64,000 bases of DNA from Arthrobacter sp. Hiyo4 (lineage in GTDB: Bacteria; Actinomycetota; Actinomycetes; Actinomycetales; Micrococcaceae), in the NCBI GenBank assembly GCA_002370555.1, contig AP014718.1:434001-498000 (forward strand). Reading direction: 5' to 3'. This document shows, piece after piece, positions 10,297-20,352 of the stretch; position 1 is the first letter of the stretch; each line of letters begins with the position of its first letter. The notes beneath the pieces are model-generated. The model did not search any database. It saw only the letters and a program-made list of their open reading frames with translations, and was not told the origin of the DNA. A program made the position numbers and the translations under genes.

Positions 10297-12625
10297 CTAG
10301 CCGAAGTACTTCGGCAGGGTCGCCTCGTGGGCTTCGCGGAGGGCGGCCAGGGACATGGTGTCCACGCCGTTGATCTCCAGGTTGCCGCTGGCTGCGTCCA
10401 CCACGCCGATGCGGGTGTGGGCAAAACCGCGGGCCGTGCACATGTCCTTGAACCGGACCTCTTCCGAGCGGGGCACGCCAACTACCGCGCGGCCCTGGGT
10501 CTCGGAGAACAGCGCCGTGAACAGGTCCACGCCGTCGCGGTCCAGAACGTCCTGCAGGGCGATCCGGGCGCCTACGCCGTAGCGCAGTGCGGACTCCACC
10601 AGGGCTGCCGCGAGGCCGCCTTCGGAGAGGTCGTGCGCGGAGTCCACCATGCCGTCGCGGGATGCATTGATCAGGATTTCGCCCAGCTCGCGTTCGGCGG
10701 CGAGGTCAACTTTGGGCGGCAGTCCACCGAGGTGACCGCGCATGTTGGCCCATTCGGAACCGTCCAGTTCTGCCGCCGTCGTACCCAGCAGGTAGATGGC
10801 CTGCCCGTCCTCGCGCCAGCCCGACGGCGTGCGGCGGGCGACGTCGTCGAGCTTGCCCAGCACTGCCACCACGGGGGAGGGGTGGATTGGCGTGGTGCCC
10901 GTCTGGTTGTACAGCGAGACGTTGCCGCCGGTGACCGGGATGCCCAACACCATGCAGGCATCGGACAGGCCGCGGATGGCCTCCGCGAGCTGCCACATGA
11001 CGTCCGGGTCCTCGGGGAACCGAAGTTCAGGCAGTCGCTGACGGCCATGGGCACGGCGCCGGAGGTGGCCACGTTGCGGTAGGCCTCGGCCAGCGCCAGC
11101 TGTGCGCCGTGGTACGGATCGAGGTAGGTGTAGCGGCCGTTGGCGTCGGTGGCCAAGGCAACGCCCAGGCCGGTTTCCTCGTCCACCCGGACCACGCCGG
11201 CATCGTCCGGGAACGCCAAGGCGGTGTTGCCGCCCACGTACCGGTCGTACTGGTTGGTGATCCAGTCCTTGCTGCACATGTTCGGCGAGGCCACGAGCTC
11301 GGTGACGGCGGCAGCCAGTTCCGCGGGGGCGGAGGGCGCCCGGTGTCCTGTACTGAGCCGGTGAAGGAATCGGCCTGTACGGAGTCCTGCCATGACGGGC
11401 GGGCGTACGGGCGGTCGTAGACCGGGCCGTCGTGGGCCACGGTACGCGGATCGACGTCCACAATGACCACGCCGTCCCAGGTGATGATCAGGCGGCCGGT
11501 GTCGGTGACCTCGCCGAGCCAGGAGTACTCCACGGCCCACTTGTCCATCACAGCTTCGAAGGCGGCGATGTTCTCCGGGGTGACCACGGCCATCATGCGT
11601 TCCTGCGACTCGGACATCAGGATCTCGCCCGGAGTCAGGGTGGGGTCGCGCAGCAGGACGGAGGTCAGCTCAACTTCCATGCCGCCGTCGCCGTTGGAGG
11701 CGAGTTCGGACGTGGCGCAGGAGATGCCAGCGGCGCCGAGGTCCTGGATACCCTCAACGAGGGAGCCCTTGAAGAGCTCCAGGCAGCACTCGATCAGGAC
11801 CTTCTCGGCGAAGGGGTCGCCCACCTGGACGGCGGGGCGCTTGGACGGTTTGGTGTCGTCGAAGGACTCGGAGGCCAGCACCGAGGCGCCGCCGATGCCG
11901 TCGCCGCCGGTGCGTGCACCGAACAGGACCACCTTGTTGCCCTTGCCGGACGCGTTGGCGAGCCGGATGTCCTCGTGGCGCATCACGCCAACGGCCAGCG
12001 CGTTAACCAGCGGGTTGCCCTGGTAAACAGAATCGAAGACCATTTCGCCACCGATGTTCGGCAGGCCCAGCGAGTTGCCGTAGCCGCCAATGCCGGCAAC
12101 GGCACCGTGCATCACACGGGCTGTATCCGGGTGGTCAATGGCGCCGAAGCGCAGCGGGTCCATCACGGCCACCGGGCGGGCGCCCATGGAGATGATGTCG
12201 CGGACAATGCCGCCGATGCCGGTCGCGGCGCCCTGGTAGGGCTCAACGAACGACGGCGAGTTGTGGGACTCGATCTTGAACGTCACGGCCCAGCCGTCGC
12301 CCAGGTTGGTGACGCCGGCGTTCTCGCCGATGCCCACCAGCATGTCCTTCTTCATCTCGTCGGTCACCTTTTCGCCGAACTGGCGCAGGTGGTTCTTCGA
12401 GGACTTGTAGGAGCAGTGCTCGCTCCACATCACGGAGTACATGGCCAGCTCGGCGCCGGTGGGGCGGCGGCCCAGGACCTTGACTACCTCATCGAACTCG
12501 TTCTGCTTCAGGCCGAGTTCGGCCCACGGCAGTTCGGTGTCCGGCGTCTTGGCAGCGTTCTCGACAGTGTCGATATTGAACTTCTTGGTCTCGACAGGCT
12601 CGACCACCGAATTGATCTCGGTCAT
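10297..12625 (-). CDS. purL: Phosphoribosylformylglycinamidine synthase subunit II (two breaks)
   Basis: Small-type PurL, the ATP-dependent FGAM synthetase that works with PurQ and PurS in purine biosynthesis. The product of about 776 residues begins [19 protein letters not shown] and shows [13 protein letters not shown] (active histidine), [42 protein letters not shown] and [12 protein letters not shown]. Frame losses near 11340 ([13 protein letters not shown]) and near 11020 ([13 protein letters not shown]) are each repaired by one base. ATG 12625 overlaps the purQ stop as ATGA. The stop TAG 10299-10297 abuts a family A palindrome. Confidence 0.93.
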
Positions 12626-13394
12626 TTGTTGCCTCCCACAATCTTGTTCAGTACGGAGGTGAAGAAACCCAGTCCGTCGGTGTCGGACCCGCCGATCCCG
12701 TCCAGGGATTCGGGGCCGAAGCCAACTTCCACCGCATGCTCGGGGTGGGGCATAAGTCCCACCACGTTGCCGGCGGCGTTGGAGATGCCGGCGATGTCGC
12801 GGCGGGAGCCGTTGGGGTTGAAGCCCATGTAGCGGAACACCACGCGGCCTTCGGCCTCGAGCGCGTCCAGGACCTTTTCGTCGGCGATGTACTGGCCGTC
12901 CTGGTTCTTCAGCGGAACCGTGATTTCCTGGCCGGCCTCGTAGTCCAGGGTCCAGGCGGTGTTGCTGTTTTCCACGCGCAGGATCTGGTCGCGGCACATG
13001 AACTTCAGGTGGTCGTTCTTGATCATGGAGCCGGGCAGCAGGTGCGATTCGGTCAGGATCTGGAAGCCGTTGCAGATGCCCAGCACGGGCAGCTTGGCAT
13101 CGGAGTTCGCGGCGTCGATGATTTTGGACATCAGCGGCGCGAAGCGGGCGATGGCGCCGGCGCGGAGGTAGTCGCCGTAGGAGAAACCGCCGGGGATCAC
13201 GACGGCGTCCACGTCACCAAGGGTGGTGTCCGCGTGCCAGAGCGGCACGGCGGTGCCGCCGGCGAGCCGGACTGCACGGGCGGCGTCGCGGTCGTCAAGG
13301 GTGCCGGGAAGGTGACGACGCCGATCCGTGCACCGGCGAGCCGGGGCTCGGCGGCGACGGCGATTGCCTCGCCGATCAAGGGAAGTTCAGTCAT
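12622..13394 (-). CDS. purQ: Phosphoribosylformylglycinamidine synthase subunit I (frame broken near 13308)
   Basis: PurQ is the glutaminase of the FGAM synthase complex. The C-terminal 209 residues contain [19 protein letters not shown], the nucleophile elbow GICNGFQ and the catalytic HPEH in [10 protein letters not shown]. The first 35 residues ([20 protein letters not shown], then GVVTFP) are in another frame; one G restored in CCGG(G)CACC near 13308 gives [17 protein letters not shown] and joins them. Start ATG 13394 is one base from the purS stop and the stop overlaps purL, so purSQL is one operon. Confidence 0.92.
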
Positions 13395-13395
13395 C

Positions 13396-13647
13396 TCAGG
13401 CCTCGACGACCTCGACGTTGACGACGTCTTCGATTACGGGGTTGGACAGCAGGGTCTCGGCGGCTTCGCGGGCCTGGGCCAGGATTGCGTCGGTCACCTC
13501 GCCCTCAACCGTCAGTTCAAAGCGCTTGCCCTGGCGGACAGAGCTAAAGCTGGTGAAGCCCAGACGGGGGAGTGCACCCACGATGGCCTTCCCCTGCGGG
13601 TCCAGAATCTCGGGCTTGGGCATGACGTCAACAACGATCCGGGGCAT
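13396..13647 (-). CDS. purS: Phosphoribosylformylglycinamidine synthase subunit PurS
   Basis: The 83-residue PurS opens MPRIVVDVMPKPEILDPQGK and has SSVRQGKRFELTVEG and ETLLSNPVIEDVVNV. It bridges PurQ and PurL and helps channel ammonia. ATG 13647 follows CAGGAGTTGCC, a strong ribosome site, so the longer reading to 13695 is rejected. It is first in the purSQL operon; the 260 bases upstream to 13908 hold no other gene I can support. Confidence 0.93.
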   Translation of the reverse strand: MPRIVVDVMPKPEILDPQGKAIVGALPRLGFTSFSSVRQGKRFELTVEGEVTDAILAQAREAAETLLSNPVIEDVVNVEVVEA

Positions 13648-13908
13648 CCGGCAACTCCTGTGCGTGAGCATTGGGTAAGGGCGCAGCGGAGTCACGCCGT
13701 CTTACGCCGTTCCGGGATGCTGGGGACGTTCTTTTTCGAACAGTGTGGACGGGCGCTCCGCGAGCTTGCTAGGCCATTCTACCGGGCCGGGCGCCGCACC
13801 CTGTATTCGGTGGGATCGGCCACAGTCATCGCGGCGTGGCGGGCTTTCGGGAGGTGGAGGACAGCGGCGGCTATGGCCTCGCGGAGCAAGCGTCACTAGG
13901 ATTGCGGC

Positions 13909-14722: not shown

Positions 14723-17700
14723 GTGAAATCAACTGGAAAAAGCCCCATTCGGGGCGGAGGACTCCGGAAGGCGGCGGCATTGGCCGTGGGCTTGCCGTTG
14801 CTCCTGTCTTCAATAGCGATGAGCCCCGCTACCGCGGCGCCCGCTGAAGCCAACACGGCAGTTGCCTCAAAGAAGATCAACCCCGGCGACTACCCCGCCG
14901 GCCGCTACATTGTGGTCCTGGCCGAGAAGCCGGCGGCCACCTACGACGGCGGGACTCCCGGGCTCGCAGCGACTAAGCCCCAGAACGGCCGCAAGCTTGA
15001 CGCCGACCGGCCCGAAGTCCAGCAGTACCAGGCGCATCTTGAGGGCAGGCAGAACGCTGTGGCCGGGTCCGAAAGCGTCCGGATCAAGCGCCAGTACACG
15101 GCTGCCATCAACGGGTTCTCGGCCGATTTGACCGCAGACCAGGCCGCTAAGCTCGCCAAGGACCCGGGCGTCCTCATGGTGGCACCGGACTCGGAGAACG
15201 CGCCGGATTACTCCACTACAGACTTCCTTGGGCTCAGCGGTGAAAACGGCATCTGGAAGACTGTCTTCGGCGGGCAGGAGAATGCCGGCAAAGGCGTCGT
15301 AGTTGGAGTTATTGACTCCGGCTACACCCCCTCCAACCCGTTCTTCGCCGGGGAAGACGTGCAACCACTCGCCGGCCAGGCCCAAGTGGGCGCCCCGTAC
15401 CGCACCGCGGACGGCAACATCGCCATGCTCAAGTCCGACGGCGACACCTTCGTTGGAGAGTGCCAGAAGGGCCAGGGAACCGGGCGGCGTTTGACGGCAG
15501 TGCCTGCAACTCCAAAGTCCTGAGTGCCCGCTACTTCGCTGACGACTACATGGCGTACGTGGCGCCGGAGAACCGCGCGCCCGAAGAGCTGATTTCGCCT
15601 GTGGATGTGGGAAGCCACGGGACGCACACTGCCAGTACCGCCGCGGGAAACGCGAACGTCCGGGCCAACCTTGGTGCAACCGATATGGGCATCACCAGCG
15701 GCGTGGCGCCGGCGGCAAAGATCTCCGTCTACAAGGTCTGCTGGGAGGACGACAATCCAGCCACAGGCGGCTGTTACAGCTCCGCCTCCGTGGCCGCGAT
15801 CAACCAGGCCATCCTAGACGGCGTGGATGTCCTGAACTACTCCATCTCCGGCAGCACCTCAACCACCACGGACCCGGTTTCGCTGGCCTTCCTCTCAGCG
15901 GCGTCCGCCGGAATCTTTGTTGCCGCATCCGCCGGAAACTCGGGACCCACGGCAAGCACCGTGAACCACGGCGCTCCGTGGCTGACCACAGTGGCGGCGA
16001 GCTCCTTCTCCACAGAGTTGCAGGGAACCGTCGAATTTGAGGACGGCAGCAAGTACCGCGGCGCCAGTCTTATGTCCGCTCCCGTTCCTGCGAGCAACGT
16101 TGTGCTGGCGGCAGGTGCCGCAGCCGCCGGCACAGCAAACCCGGAACTGTGCGCACCCAATGCGCTGGATCCGGCCAAGGTAACAGGGAAGATTGTTGTC
16201 TGCGACCGCGGGGTGGTGGACCGCGTAGCCAAGAGCGCCGAGGTGCAGCGCGCCGGCGGCATCGGCATGATTCTGGTCAACATATCCCCCTCCTCCGAGG
16301 ACCTTGACCGCCACGCAGTCCCGACTGTGCACGTGAACCCGCCGGCCACGCAGCAGATCAAGGACAAGATCATCGCCAACCCCGGCATCAAGGTCTCCCT
16401 GGTAAACGCGGACACCACCGGCCTTCCGGTCGCGCCGCAGCCGCAGATCGCCGGCTTCTCTTCCCGGGGCCCGTTGCTCGCAACCGGCTCAGACCTGCTC
16501 AAGCCTGACGTGGCGGCCCGGGCGTGGCAGTGCTGGCAGGTGTGTCACCCATCGGTTCCGGCGGCGACCAGTTCGGCATGATGTCCGGGACGTCAATGGC
16601 CGCGCCGCACGTGGCCGGATTTGGCGCCTTGATTCTGGCCAAGAACCCCACATGGTCTCCGGCCACCGTCAAGTCAGCCATGATGACCACAGCCTCTGAT
16701 ATCAAGAACGCAGACGGCAGCCGGAACGGTGACGTGTTCGCCACCGGCGCCGGCCAGGTGGACATTGCGCGGGTCCTGGATCCCGGCCTGGTCTACGACA
16801 ATTCCGAGGACGACTACCTGAAGTTCGTTCAGGGGACGGGCCTGGACCTGGGCATCCCGGATCTCGGAACAACCGCACCACGGGATATGAATGTTGCCTC
16901 GTTCGCGCTGGGGGCACTCACCGGGAAGACGGAGGTCACGCGGACTGTCACTGCGCTGACCCCGGGCGTTTACCGGGCCAAGGCCAGCGTTCCCGGCGTC
17001 AGGGTGACGGTCACGCCGTCGGTCCTTAGCTTCAATGCCGCCGGCGAGAAGCGCACCTTCAAGGTCAAGTTCGAGAACACCAGCGCTGCCCTGGGGCAGT
17101 TCGCCATGGGCAACCTCGTCTGGCATGGTGCCGGCAAGAATGTGGCATCGCCGGTGGCCGTCCGCCCGCAGTCGGTGGTGGCACCGGCAAACCTGGCGTT
17201 TACCTCGGAAGGAGGCCAGGGGCAGGGCGACATTCCGGTGGTTTCGGGCACCAACGCGCCCGTGAAGATCACCCTGGACGGCCTGTCCAAGGCTGACTCC
17301 TCGGCCATCGAACTGGTTCCAGGGCCGCTGGCCCTGGATACGGACGCGTCCAACTTCGCCAAGGAGGTCACCGTTCCGGCAGGATCGCCGCTGGCAAAGT
17401 TCTCCGTCTTTTCCTCGGACGAGGCCGCCGACTTCGACATGGTGGTCTTCAACCCGGCGGGCCAGGCCCTGCTGGCCCAGACGGCCTCTGCCAGTGAGTC
17501 AATTTCGGTTCCGAACCCGGCTCCGGGCGTGTACGCGATTTTTGTGAACCTCTACGCAAGCCCCAATGGGCAGCCCACGAAGGCGTCCGTGGACGCTGCG
17601 GTGCTGGGAGCCAACGTGGGAAATGCCACGGTGACCCCCAATCCCTTGCGGCTCGGGAACGGCAAGTCGGGCATTCTGAAGCTTCAGTGGAAGGGGCTCG

Positions 17701-17909
17701 CTGAAGGCTCCTATATCGGCCGGGTGACGTTCGCCGGTTCGAGCGCGCCCACCTTCGTCTCTGTGGTTGTCACGCCAGGCAGTGCTTTGGTGGTCCCCGC
17801 TGATGAAACTGCCGATGACCCTGCCAACGACAAGAAGGACAAGGCCAAAAAGGAAAAGAAGAAGCAGGAGGTCCCGGAGTTCTCCGGAAACCGGAACATG
17901 GATCTCTAG
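14723..17909 (+). CDS. Secreted subtilase (S8 peptidase) with PA insert (two breaks)
   Basis: A large extracellular serine protease of about 1060 residues. GTG 14723 starts a basic leader with hydrophobic core LAVGLPLLLSSIAM and an Ala-x-Ala site. An I9 propeptide follows (YIVVLAEKPA, RQYTAAINGFSADL). The catalytic residues are Asp in GVVVGVIDSGY, His in GSHGTHTAST and Ser in MSGTSMAAPHVAG. A protease-associated insert (GKIVVCDRG, VQRAGGIGMILVN) lies before the serine. A beta-rich fibronectin-like part and a lysine-rich end (KKDKAKKEKKKQE) finish it. Frame losses near 15483 and 16517 are repaired by one base each. It is convergent with an SSI-like operon, which suggests paired control. Confidence 0.9.
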
Positions 17910-17926
17910 CCCTTCAGCAACAGCAT

Positions 17927-17970
17927 GGGAACGCCGCCGGACCGCTTGGTTCCGGCGGCGTTCCCGTTTT
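17927..17970. terminator. Strong terminator between subtilase and SSI-like operon
   Basis: Perfect 15-base arms GGGAACGCCGCCGGA (17927-17941) and TCCGGCGGCGTTCCC (17951-17965) are followed by GTTTT. It ends the subtilase transcript and probably also the opposing operon. Confidence 0.9.
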
Positions 17971-17990
17971 GCGGAGGCCGCCGCCGATGG

Positions 17991-18343
17991 TCAGATTTCG
18001 CCGCGGGAACCAGTTGTCCCGCCGAGCAGGGGAGCCATAGCGCGCCATCGGGAGATTTCACAGCCATCGGTTCGCCGGAAAGTCACACTGACGGGACGGC
18101 CGTTGATGGAGCCGGTCACAACGGCCACCTGCGGCCCGCCGTATTGCTGCGTGCAGAGTTTCGGGGGGCCCGGCTTGGGAAAGAAGATGTCCTCACCGAA
18201 GCGTTCCATCGCTGACAACGCTGCCGCGGGATCGGGCACGGTGCAACCATCGGCAGGGCGGCCATCGCGGACTATCAGCCGGAACTCGTACTCGGGGAGT
18301 CGGGGTTTTCTGTGACCCTGATGGTCAACTCGAGGTCCTTCAT
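17991..18343 (-). CDS. SSI-like (subtilisin inhibitor-like) domain protein without signal peptide (frame broken near 18298)
   Basis: About 117 residues. The core KLCTQQYGGPQVAVVTGSI and VTFRRTDGCEISRW match the second half of the Streptomyces subtilisin inhibitor-like fold, keeping the disulfide that holds the reactive loop. The first disulfide is lost: the positions read LIVR and AALSAM, without cysteine. The start ATG 18343 (MKDLELTIRVTENPDSP) overlaps the stop of the upstream gene as ATGA and provides no secretion signal. One C is missing near 18298. The residue two after the loop cysteine is Gln, not the usual Met or Lys, so inhibition of the neighbouring subtilase is doubtful. Confidence 0.65.
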
Positions 18344-19263
18344 GCCGTCCCCGCAGTTCGGAGCGGTGCCAAGGCCTGCGCCAGACGCCCTCGGAGCGCA
18401 GCAGCCTCACCGGCGAAGGCGCGCTGATGCTCAACGTAGGCCGCTTTGCCTTCCGCGGTTTCGATCCGAATGGGTGGGTAGCCCCACTCCGCGAGGTCGT
18501 AGGGGGAGGCCTGCATGTCCATGGCCCGGATCCGCCAGGACAGTTCGAAGCAATCCATGACCAGTTCGCTGGGAAGCGCGGGGAGCAGTTTGTACGCCCA
18601 CTTGTAGAGGTCCATGTTGGCGTGCAGGCAGCCCGGCTGTTCCATGTGCCGCTGGTTTTCGCGGCTGGGCGCCAGTTCGTTCAGTGCAATCGCGTCGGGC
18701 GTGTAAAAGCGGAAGGCGTCGAAGTGTGAGCACCGGATCCGGTTGTCCTCTACCACTTTGTCCGTGCCAGCCGAACCCAGCCTCAGCTGCAGGTATTCAT
18801 GGCGCAGGTCGAATTTGTCCTGGCGGTAGACCATGGCCCATTCGTGCAGCCCGAAGCAGCCGAACTGCGCGGGCCGGGCAGCGGTGCCGCGAAGAATGAT
18901 GTCCGCGAAGGCCACAGCCTCGTGCCGGTCGACCAGGAACCGGGCGCGGTCAAATGTCACGGCAGGGGTTCCTGGCGGCAGCCCAAGGGAGGCGAGTTCG
19001 CCGTCGTCGAGCGTTTTGTAGTGCCTCCAGCCCATGCGCGCGGACGCCGCTTCAGCGGTCAGTACGACGCCGGATCCCGGGTGCCAGCGCAGCAGTTGGC
19101 CAGGCTTCTGGGTGTAGTAAGTGAAAAGAAAGTCTTCAACCGGGTGCTTCCGACCTGCCGAGCGGCGGGCAAGGTAGGGATCCGAGTAACGGCGGACGCG
19201 TTGGGCGTGCGCTTCTTCGCGGGCACGCCAGGCCTCGGCCGTCAGCAGGCTACGTTGCTCCAC
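18340..19263 (-). CDS. Conserved protein often annotated 3-methyladenine DNA glycosylase
   Basis: An intact protein of 307 residues: VEDFLFTYYTQKPGQLLRWH, RMGWRHYKTLDDGE, FDLRHEYLQLRLGS, HFDAFRFYTPDA and ANMDLYKWAYKL. Actinobacterial homologues carry the name 3-methyladenine DNA glycosylase, but I see no helix-hairpin-helix GPD motif or AAG-type active site, so the name should be treated with caution. GTG 19263 overlaps the end of the upstream SSI-like gene by 14 bases and its TGA overlaps the downstream SSI-like start. It is thus translationally coupled to two SSI-like proteins, an odd setting for a DNA repair enzyme. Confidence 0.6.
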   Translation of the reverse strand: MEQRSLLTAEAWRAREEAHAQRVRRYSDPYLARRSAGRKHPVEDFLFTYYTQKPGQLLRWHPGSGVVLTAEAASARMGWRHYKTLDDGELASLGLPPGTPAVTFDRARFLVDRHEAVAFADIILRGTAARPAQFGCFGLHEWAMVYRQDKFDLRHEYLQLRLGSAGTDKVVEDNRIRCSHFDAFRFYTPDAIALNELAPSRENQRHMEQPGCLHANMDLYKWAYKLLPALPSELVMDCFELSWRIRAMDMQASPYDLAEWGYPPIRIETAEGKAAYVEHQRAFAGEAAALRGRLAQALAPLRTAGTA

Positions 19264-19813
19264 CGCTGGCACCCAGGACGTCCTGGGCTGCGTTCCAGGC
19301 ACCGATTTCGCAGCCGTTGGTGCGCGCGAACGTGGCATCCACGGGAGTATCGTCCACAATCCCGGTGACCGTGGCGGTCTGCGGGCCGCCGTATTGTTCG
19401 GTGCAGGCCACGTCTTTGCTCTTGGGGCCGGGCTGAGGAGCGCAGCGTTGTTCTTGAGGGCAGCGCACGCAGCCTCCGGCCTGGGGTGCTTGCTCTCAGC
19501 CGTGGGGAGGCCGCCGCGGCAGACCAGCGTGAAGTTCACTGCCGCTTCGGCGGGAGAGGGCCTGACCATGATGGCAAGCTCGGCGTTGCCGGCGCCGGGC
19601 CTGCCGTCGGGGCCGGGGGTGCGGAAGGGGACGGCGCGGGGACGGTGGTCTCGGTGTCCGGAACGGGGGCCCGGAGGTGCCCGGGCTGGCGGAGGAGCTG
19701 GTTGTGGGGCTGGCGGATGAAGAAGTCCCGTTCCCGTCAGGCGTGCCCGTACAGGCGGCAAGCCCGGCAATGGCGAGGACCGCCAGCAATGGCCGTACTG
19801 TTCGCAAATGCAT
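19250..19813 (-). CDS. SSI-like lipoprotein (two breaks)
   Basis: ATG 19813 follows AGGAGGGCC. The N-terminus LLAVLAIAGLAACTG is a lipobox signal, then comes a Ser/Thr/Pro linker in which the frame shifts near 19670. The domain reads VNFTLVCRGGLP, EAACAALKN, then after another loss near 19436 DVACTEQYGGPQTATVTG and ARTNGCEIGAW. The four cysteines match the two disulfides of subtilisin inhibitor-like proteins. The stop TAG 19252-19250 lies inside the next gene. The protein would be surface-anchored, facing the same compartment as the secreted subtilase. The putative P1 residue is Glu. Confidence 0.7.
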
Positions 19814-19869
19814 GGGCCCTCCTAGGTTGCTGCCATTTTACGCCTTGGCGGGTTACTCCCTTGCCGCAT

Positions 19870-20352
19870 TTACTCCCCGACGGGTTGCCCATTGGATCCG
19901 GCGGTGGCGGCGATGAGCCCCATCATGGATTTGTGCAGCGCGCCCACCTGCTCACGGGTCAGCCCCAGGCGTTCCATCATGGTGCCCGGGACGGCAATGG
20001 CCTGCTGACGCAGCGCGGCGCCGGCCGGGGTCAGGCCCACGGCAAGGGTCCGTTCGTTTCCGTCCACCCGTTGGCGGGTGACAAAGCCGGCCTCCTCCAG
20101 CCGCCGAAGCAGAGGTGAGATGGTGGCCGGGGCCTGCGCCAGGGCTTCACTGATGCTGCGCAGGGTGCGGGGTGCTGATTCCCACAGGCACAGCATCACG
20201 AGATATTGCGGGTGGGTGAGTCCGAGCTTTTCGAGGACGGGCTTGTAGGCGCCCACCACGCTTCTGGATGCCACGGTGAGGGCAAAACAAAGCTGTTGCT
20301 CCAAGGGGAGGTCATCGTCCTGCTGCCGCGCAGCGCCGGGGCGTACCGTCAT
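19870..20352 (-). CDS. MarR-family regulator, OhrR-like
   Basis: The 160-residue protein has the winged helix core (LTHPQYLVMLCLWE, SISEALAQAPATISPLLRRL, VTRQRVDGNER). The N-terminal EQQLCFALTVASRSVVGAY carries the cysteine of OhrR, the peroxide-sensing MarR group in which oxidation of this cysteine releases DNA. No ohr gene is adjacent. A palindrome TTAGTGCACTAA lies 17 bases before the start, so self-regulation and control of the divergent small gene at 20434 are likely. Intact frame. Confidence 0.8.
   Translation of the reverse strand: MTVRPGAARQQDDDLPLEQQLCFALTVASRSVVGAYKPVLEKLGLTHPQYLVMLCLWESAPRTLRSISEALAQAPATISPLLRRLEEAGFVTRQRVDGNERTLAVGLTPAGAALRQQAIAVPGTMMERLGLTREQVGALHKSMMGLIAATAGSNGQPVGE

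Follow-up and report, generated by a model that had tools for sequence, protein, structure and literature searches.

Why should a secreted protease face an operon that encodes two proteins of the inhibitor type, one of them carrying no recognisable export signal? The question is raised by a stretch of 64,000 nucleotides from Arthrobacter sp. Hiyo4 (assembly GCA_002370555.1, contig AP014718.1, positions 434,001 to 498,000 of the forward strand), which is called the window here. In it, a subtilase of peptidase family S8 converges with three genes whose first and third products, SSI1 and SSI3, resemble the Streptomyces subtilisin inhibitor (SSI) and stand on either side of a middle product, GLY. 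An original prediction took this set for a protease/inhibitor or protease/immunity module. Our analysis leads to another reading, to which as a whole we give about an even chance: SSI1 would be a surface inhibitor, whereas SSI3 would once have been a lipoprotein inhibitor and would now act inside the cell with a fixed partner. The four genes are as follows (window coordinates).

14723..17909, plus strand: subtilase, convergent with the minus-strand operon SSI1-GLY-SSI3
19813-19250, minus strand: SSI1, first gene of the operon, frame-shifted in this assembly
19263-18340, minus strand: GLY, middle gene of the operon, with a GTG start at 19263
18343-17991, minus strand: SSI3, third gene of the operon, with one frameshift near 18.29 kb

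The predicted anatomy, a secreted S8 protease convergent with a three-gene operon, was borne out. The operon genes overlap, the SSI1 stop with the GLY start and the SSI3 ATG with the GLY stop by 4 nt. Conservation was followed in a genus sample of 60 loci chosen by genome handle, in all of which SSI1 and SSI3 flank GLY (60/60). The convergent subtilase follows in 59/60, the exception (L270) stopping at a contig edge just past GLY. Of these 59 subtilases, 54 begin or end no more than 500 bp from SSI3, and the other five lie at distances reaching 4.9 kb. A second set, of 47 loci, was made up of 20 chosen by handle, L196 and 26 named loci, the last assigned to the genus because they show the four-gene block. 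It served for the ratios of non-synonymous to synonymous substitution (dN/dS) and for a GLY tree, and the block was counted in the 60 loci only; in two members of the 47, L136 and L146, the subtilase lies more than 1.5 kb from SSI3, and GLY is interrupted in L146.

SSI1 is a lipoprotein with a Ser/Thr/Pro-rich linker and a four-cysteine SSI domain. Two intact orthologues scanned with the Pfam SSI family (PF00720) scored 27.2 and 27.6 bits against a cut-off of 23.9. All four cysteines, which the original prediction had noticed in the lipoprotein, are present in 60/60 genus loci and would form two disulfides, while a lipobox-like motif, the export signal looked for, precedes the domain in 59/60. 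Loop positions were taken from a HMMER alignment to SSI, with what we take to be the SSI residue numbering. The P1 residue of SSI1 varies among the 60 loci (Q in 40, M in 14, E in five, one unread), and its median dN/dS is 0.274 (495 pairs with dS 0.1-1.2, 47-locus set). Most likely, SSI1 is a surface-anchored inhibitor of the SSI family, held by its lipid anchor, and would bind serine proteases at the envelope as they leave the cell or once they are outside. Among its putative targets the subtilase next door is plausible, though not exclusive.

The third product was also said to be SSI-like, which stands by fold and falls short by sequence profile: two SSI3 orthologues reached 12.3 and 17.9 bits, under the cut-off of 23.9. 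A predicted model of SSI3 (predicted local distance difference test, pLDDT, 84.4) was compared with the PDB by Foldseek, and the first 14 matches all belong to the SSI family (SSI, sermetstatin, SSTI), with probabilities of 0.99-1.00 and three of them at E <= 0.001; template modelling (TM) scores of 0.49-0.60 and root mean square deviations of 5.3-6.7 indicate a match to the fold, not a close one. It is on this predicted structure that SSI3 is assigned to the SSI fold. The first cysteine pair is gone, two domain cysteines being found in 50/60 genus loci and three in 10/60. No 15-residue stretch in the first 40 residues has a hydropathy above 1.15 in the 60 genus loci, in agreement with the earlier view that this product lacks a signal peptide. 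The reactive loop, CTQQYGGPQ, is identical in 60/60 loci. With a median dN/dS of 0.255 (580 pairs, same dS limits and set), SSI3 is under purifying selection similar to that on SSI1.

SSI3 might still leave the cell, either through non-classical export or because translation begins at a start codon that has been missed; for IPI, an inhibitor from Bacillus, an alternative start with a signal has indeed been proposed (PMC3901451). However, the upstream in-frame extensions of SSI3 in the 60 genus loci (48 scorable) all stay at or below a hydropathy of 1.59, and in 17/60 the reading frame is closed by a stop less than or equal to 25 codons before the start, so that export of SSI3 is very improbable.

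Where SSI3 came from is suggested by a tree of 91 SSI domains (112 columns, midpoint-rooted only, with many forks lacking resolution). The SSI3 type forms one supported group (98/90), which includes the lipoproteins of genus g24, and the next rows joined to it (84/90) are lipoproteins encoded downstream of GLY. Through this grouping SSI3 looks like a surface inhibitor turned cytosolic: it would descend from lipoprotein inhibitors, with its export signal and first disulfide lost on the way. The 4-nt overlap of the GLY stop and the SSI3 start, found in 48/60 genus loci, is consistent with SSI3 being made in the cytosol through translational coupling to GLY, and purifying selection would have kept it there with its loop invariant. 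Loss of the signal and of the disulfide, the putative coupling to GLY and the invariant loop together suggest that SSI3 probably binds a fixed intracellular partner and is not a guard against this subtilase. A more specific course of events is put forward tentatively, namely that SSI3, after its shift into the cytosol, was taken up as a partner by GLY or by a housekeeping protease, whereupon a once variable loop became frozen; the adjacent protease would then mark the origin of SSI3 and not its function.

Whether the parts of the locus depend on each other can be judged from their distribution beyond the genus. Loci taken one each from 31 other genera were examined over about 6 kb around GLY: 16 of them have an SSI gene there, and seven have a subtilase, mostly on the opposite side of GLY and divergent. 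The SSI protein is a lipoprotein there as a rule. Many of these loci have lysC or MarR on one flank and purS/purQ on the other. The window has two flanking genes that we take, by name, to be MarR and purS.

19870..20352, minus strand: MarR-like regulator, which several other genera also have at this locus
13396..13695, minus strand: purS-like gene, on the subtilase side

The locus (lysC, MarR, GLY, SSI, purS/purQ) appears to be an old Micrococcaceae neighbourhood, in which the subtilase occurs in a minority of genera. Outside the family, GLY was found without SSI or subtilase over the stretch covered in 9/9 loci and in 23/23 named loci. Co-occurrence was surveyed in 111 genomes of the 31 other genera, nearness being set at 12 kb and absence of the subtilase at no match with E 1e-60. 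The subtilase was found in 39 genomes and SSI in 59; 28 hold both, 31 SSI only, 11 the subtilase only and 41 neither. Nearness was seen for subtilase and SSI in 27/28, for subtilase and GLY in 34/39, and for SSI and GLY in 53/59. Counted by genus (nine with both, two with the subtilase only, nine with SSI only, 11 with neither), the association is weak (Fisher p 0.066); counted by genome, with kinship ignored, p is 0.005. Much of the linkage between subtilase and SSI may be inheritance from a single old lysC/MarR-purS/purQ locus.

These counts bear on the possibility that GLY itself is what SSI3 serves, as its regulator or chaperone, with the subtilase a bystander. The 4-nt overlap would couple production of the two proteins, and SSI keeps close to GLY in the 53 of 59 genomes just given. 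Still, an SSI1-SSI3 tandem occurs in G251 and G307 with GLY on another contig, while GLY is without SSI within 6 kb in 15/31 other genera and 9/9 loci outside the family, which makes this explanation rather doubtful. GLY is an actinobacterial protein of about 307 aa, matched in 197/198 genus genomes (its open reading frame, ORF, at E 1e-10, anywhere in the genome) and in 123 of 246 sampled genomes of the class. The label '3-methyladenine DNA glycosylase' is attached to one of five homologues, a plasmid one, and has no support in this analysis; for that label in Arthrobacter, PMC listed one genome paper. Neither Pfam nor NCBIfam has a family that GLY matches at E 1, and its best PDB sequence match had an E-value of 0.75. 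For its predicted model (pLDDT 93.4), Foldseek found no PDB chain at E 0.001, where a missing match does not exclude a glycosylase fold; in a VIA comparison with 411 chains, helix bundles came out highest, at Z 5.1, and there was no glycosylase among the matches listed, which excludes nothing. Residues invariant in 29 GLY sequences include C136, H140, H155, C178, H180, C212 and H214, and these Cys and His residues could make up a putative metal site.

The same survey weakens the idea of a dedicated protease/immunity module, in which protection from the adjacent subtilase would fall to SSI1 at the surface and to SSI3 in the cytosol. What favours it is adjacency: all four genes are together in nearly every genus locus (59/60), subtilase and SSI are neighbours in 27 of the 28 other genomes that hold both, and in g24 a lipoprotein SSI stands beside the subtilase, away from GLY, in four genomes (G220, G247, G289, G305) and both are missing from a fifth (G270), a pattern that favours a protease/inhibitor pair in that one genus. 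Yet SSI occurs without this subtilase in 31/59 genomes and 9/18 genera, and the subtilase without SSI in 11/39 genomes, so the inhibitor is not restricted to the company of its protease. In addition, signal-less SSI3 is present in three genomes where this subtilase was not found, G214 and the two g28 genomes G251 and G307, in which it follows SSI1; this speaks against SSI3 guarding the subtilase and against GLY as its sole partner. An SSI3 copy in g19 stands beside a subtilase and has lost the cysteines and the loop motif, and the subtilase has an I9 propeptide of its own. We consider a dedicated module unlikely. The original prediction was to fail if the operon commonly occurred without the subtilase, and outside the genus that is largely the case (31/59 SSI-bearing genomes); conservation of the block with the subtilase in Micrococcaceae holds within the genus and is patchy beyond it. 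An inhibitor paired with its protease therefore survives in part, through the adjacency counts and g24, whereas a cytosolic copy acting against premature activity is unlikely, given the three genomes and the I9 propeptide.

Several observations weigh against a cytosolic SSI3 with a fixed partner and a subtilase of minor importance to it. Branching inside the SSI3 group is weakly supported and the tree lacks a true root, so that the signal could have been lost once and regained in g24, or lost several times. The convergent subtilase downstream in 59/60 genus loci suits a dedicated module as well. G214, G251 and G307 possess other exported S8 proteases. Finally, the subtilases in the convergent slot of the 60 genus loci belong to two clades far apart from each other, 36 to A and 23 to B, which looks as though the position required a subtilase. 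The same pattern would arise if conserved flanks recombined. In the GLY tree of 47 loci L196, a close relative of the window with a clade A subtilase, sits among B carriers, which suggests that the subtilase was swapped and its neighbours left in place. The subtilase and GLY trees are of a quick kind, and the former has long branches.

Other arrangements of these genes were also seen. The clade in the subtilase slot switches between close GLY relatives at the L196 and L115 loci. In L098, L106, L125, L126, L127 and L164 another subtilase, divergent and from a clade of its own, lies upstream of SSI1, which gives the operon subtilases on both flanks. An SSI1-SSI3 tandem with no GLY or subtilase nearby occurs in L201 (5225-6222) and L202 (5760-6736), close to a gene that we presume to be galU-like. 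In 17 subtilase-free loci, a motif scan, which is a weak test, gave no convincing S8 or S1 gene beside SSI.

The subtilase comprises an I9 propeptide, an S8 catalytic domain with a PA domain, an fn3_6 domain and a weak PPC domain, with a signal peptide judged by eye. Its frame is broken near 15.47 kb and 16.53 kb into three open pieces, whereas in the closest relatives it is one open frame of about 1064 codons. Membership of peptidase family S8 follows from a Pfam S8 match and from the Asp, His and Ser motifs, spread in the window over the three frames:

15305-15331, plus strand: GVIDSGYTP, subtilase catalytic motif
15610-15636, plus strand: GSHGTHTAS, subtilase catalytic motif
16587-16619, plus strand: GTSMAAPHVAG, subtilase catalytic motif

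The last piece was matched in 198/198 genus genomes (E 1e-10, anywhere in the genome).

In the window, then, the protease and both inhibitors are all broken, the subtilase being in three frames and SSI1 and SSI3 frame-shifted. The closest named records to the locus are from Arthrobacter and Pseudarthrobacter. The breaks were aligned base by base over the operon (17901-19900), those of the subtilase lying outside that alignment; blastn of the whole stretch gave 95.6% identity with 12 gap openings. Over the operon, against an intact relative (96.9% identity), four one-base losses were found, one in SSI3 and three in SSI1, and two longer gaps span 9 and 16 bases. Since the orthologues are intact in relatives, the frame breaks are likely to be assembly errors. 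That the genes are pseudogenes was considered less likely, as close relatives are intact and the operon breaks are one-base losses, three of the four in plain G runs. A purL-like gene (window 11027-12997) also appears frame-broken, since the residues at both ends of one ORF differ in kind from the rest; numerous small indels in the assembly would account for this. Among the records sampled, those titled Sporosarcina beigongshangi and Acidobacteria bacterium (L138, L163) contain Arthrobacter-like loci, and it is likely that these assemblies carry a wrong label or are mixed.

Inhibitors of the SSI family are known to be secreted, and PMC searches on them showed no report of a signal-less member among the matches listed. 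In a genus that keeps such a copy with an invariant loop, the move of an inhibitor from one compartment to another can be studied cleanly. Since sister genera still have lipoprotein relatives at this locus, both the loss of export and the switch of partner are directly testable. The locus also draws attention to GLY, which is carried by half of the sampled class genomes under an unsupported database label. Compared with the PF00720 family (SSI, sermetstatin, SSTI), both proteins share the fold, the second cysteine pair and the position of the loop, and SSI1 has both cysteine pairs and the export signal as well. They depart from it in that SSI1 is lipid-anchored with a long linker, and SSI3 lacks the signal and the first cysteine pair and has an invariant loop. 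IPI of Bacillus subtilis, reported to inhibit the intracellular subtilisin Isp1 (PMC3901451), provides the concept of an intracellular subtilisin inhibitor for SSI3, but it has an unrelated, Ig-like fold, and no clear intracellular S8 target was found for SSI3 among 29 S8 matches in seven genomes, of which 27 were judged by eye (L230 and L244 left out) and look exported at the N-terminus except L247, which is sedolisin-like. PMC4255298 describes Sti of Streptomyces coelicolor as an extracellular brake on a protease cascade, and Sti-like inhibitors as extracellular and unusually divergent between species. As an inhibitor of the organism's own extracellular proteases, Sti is a model for SSI1, while the SSI3 loop, identical in all 60 loci, sets SSI3 apart from it.

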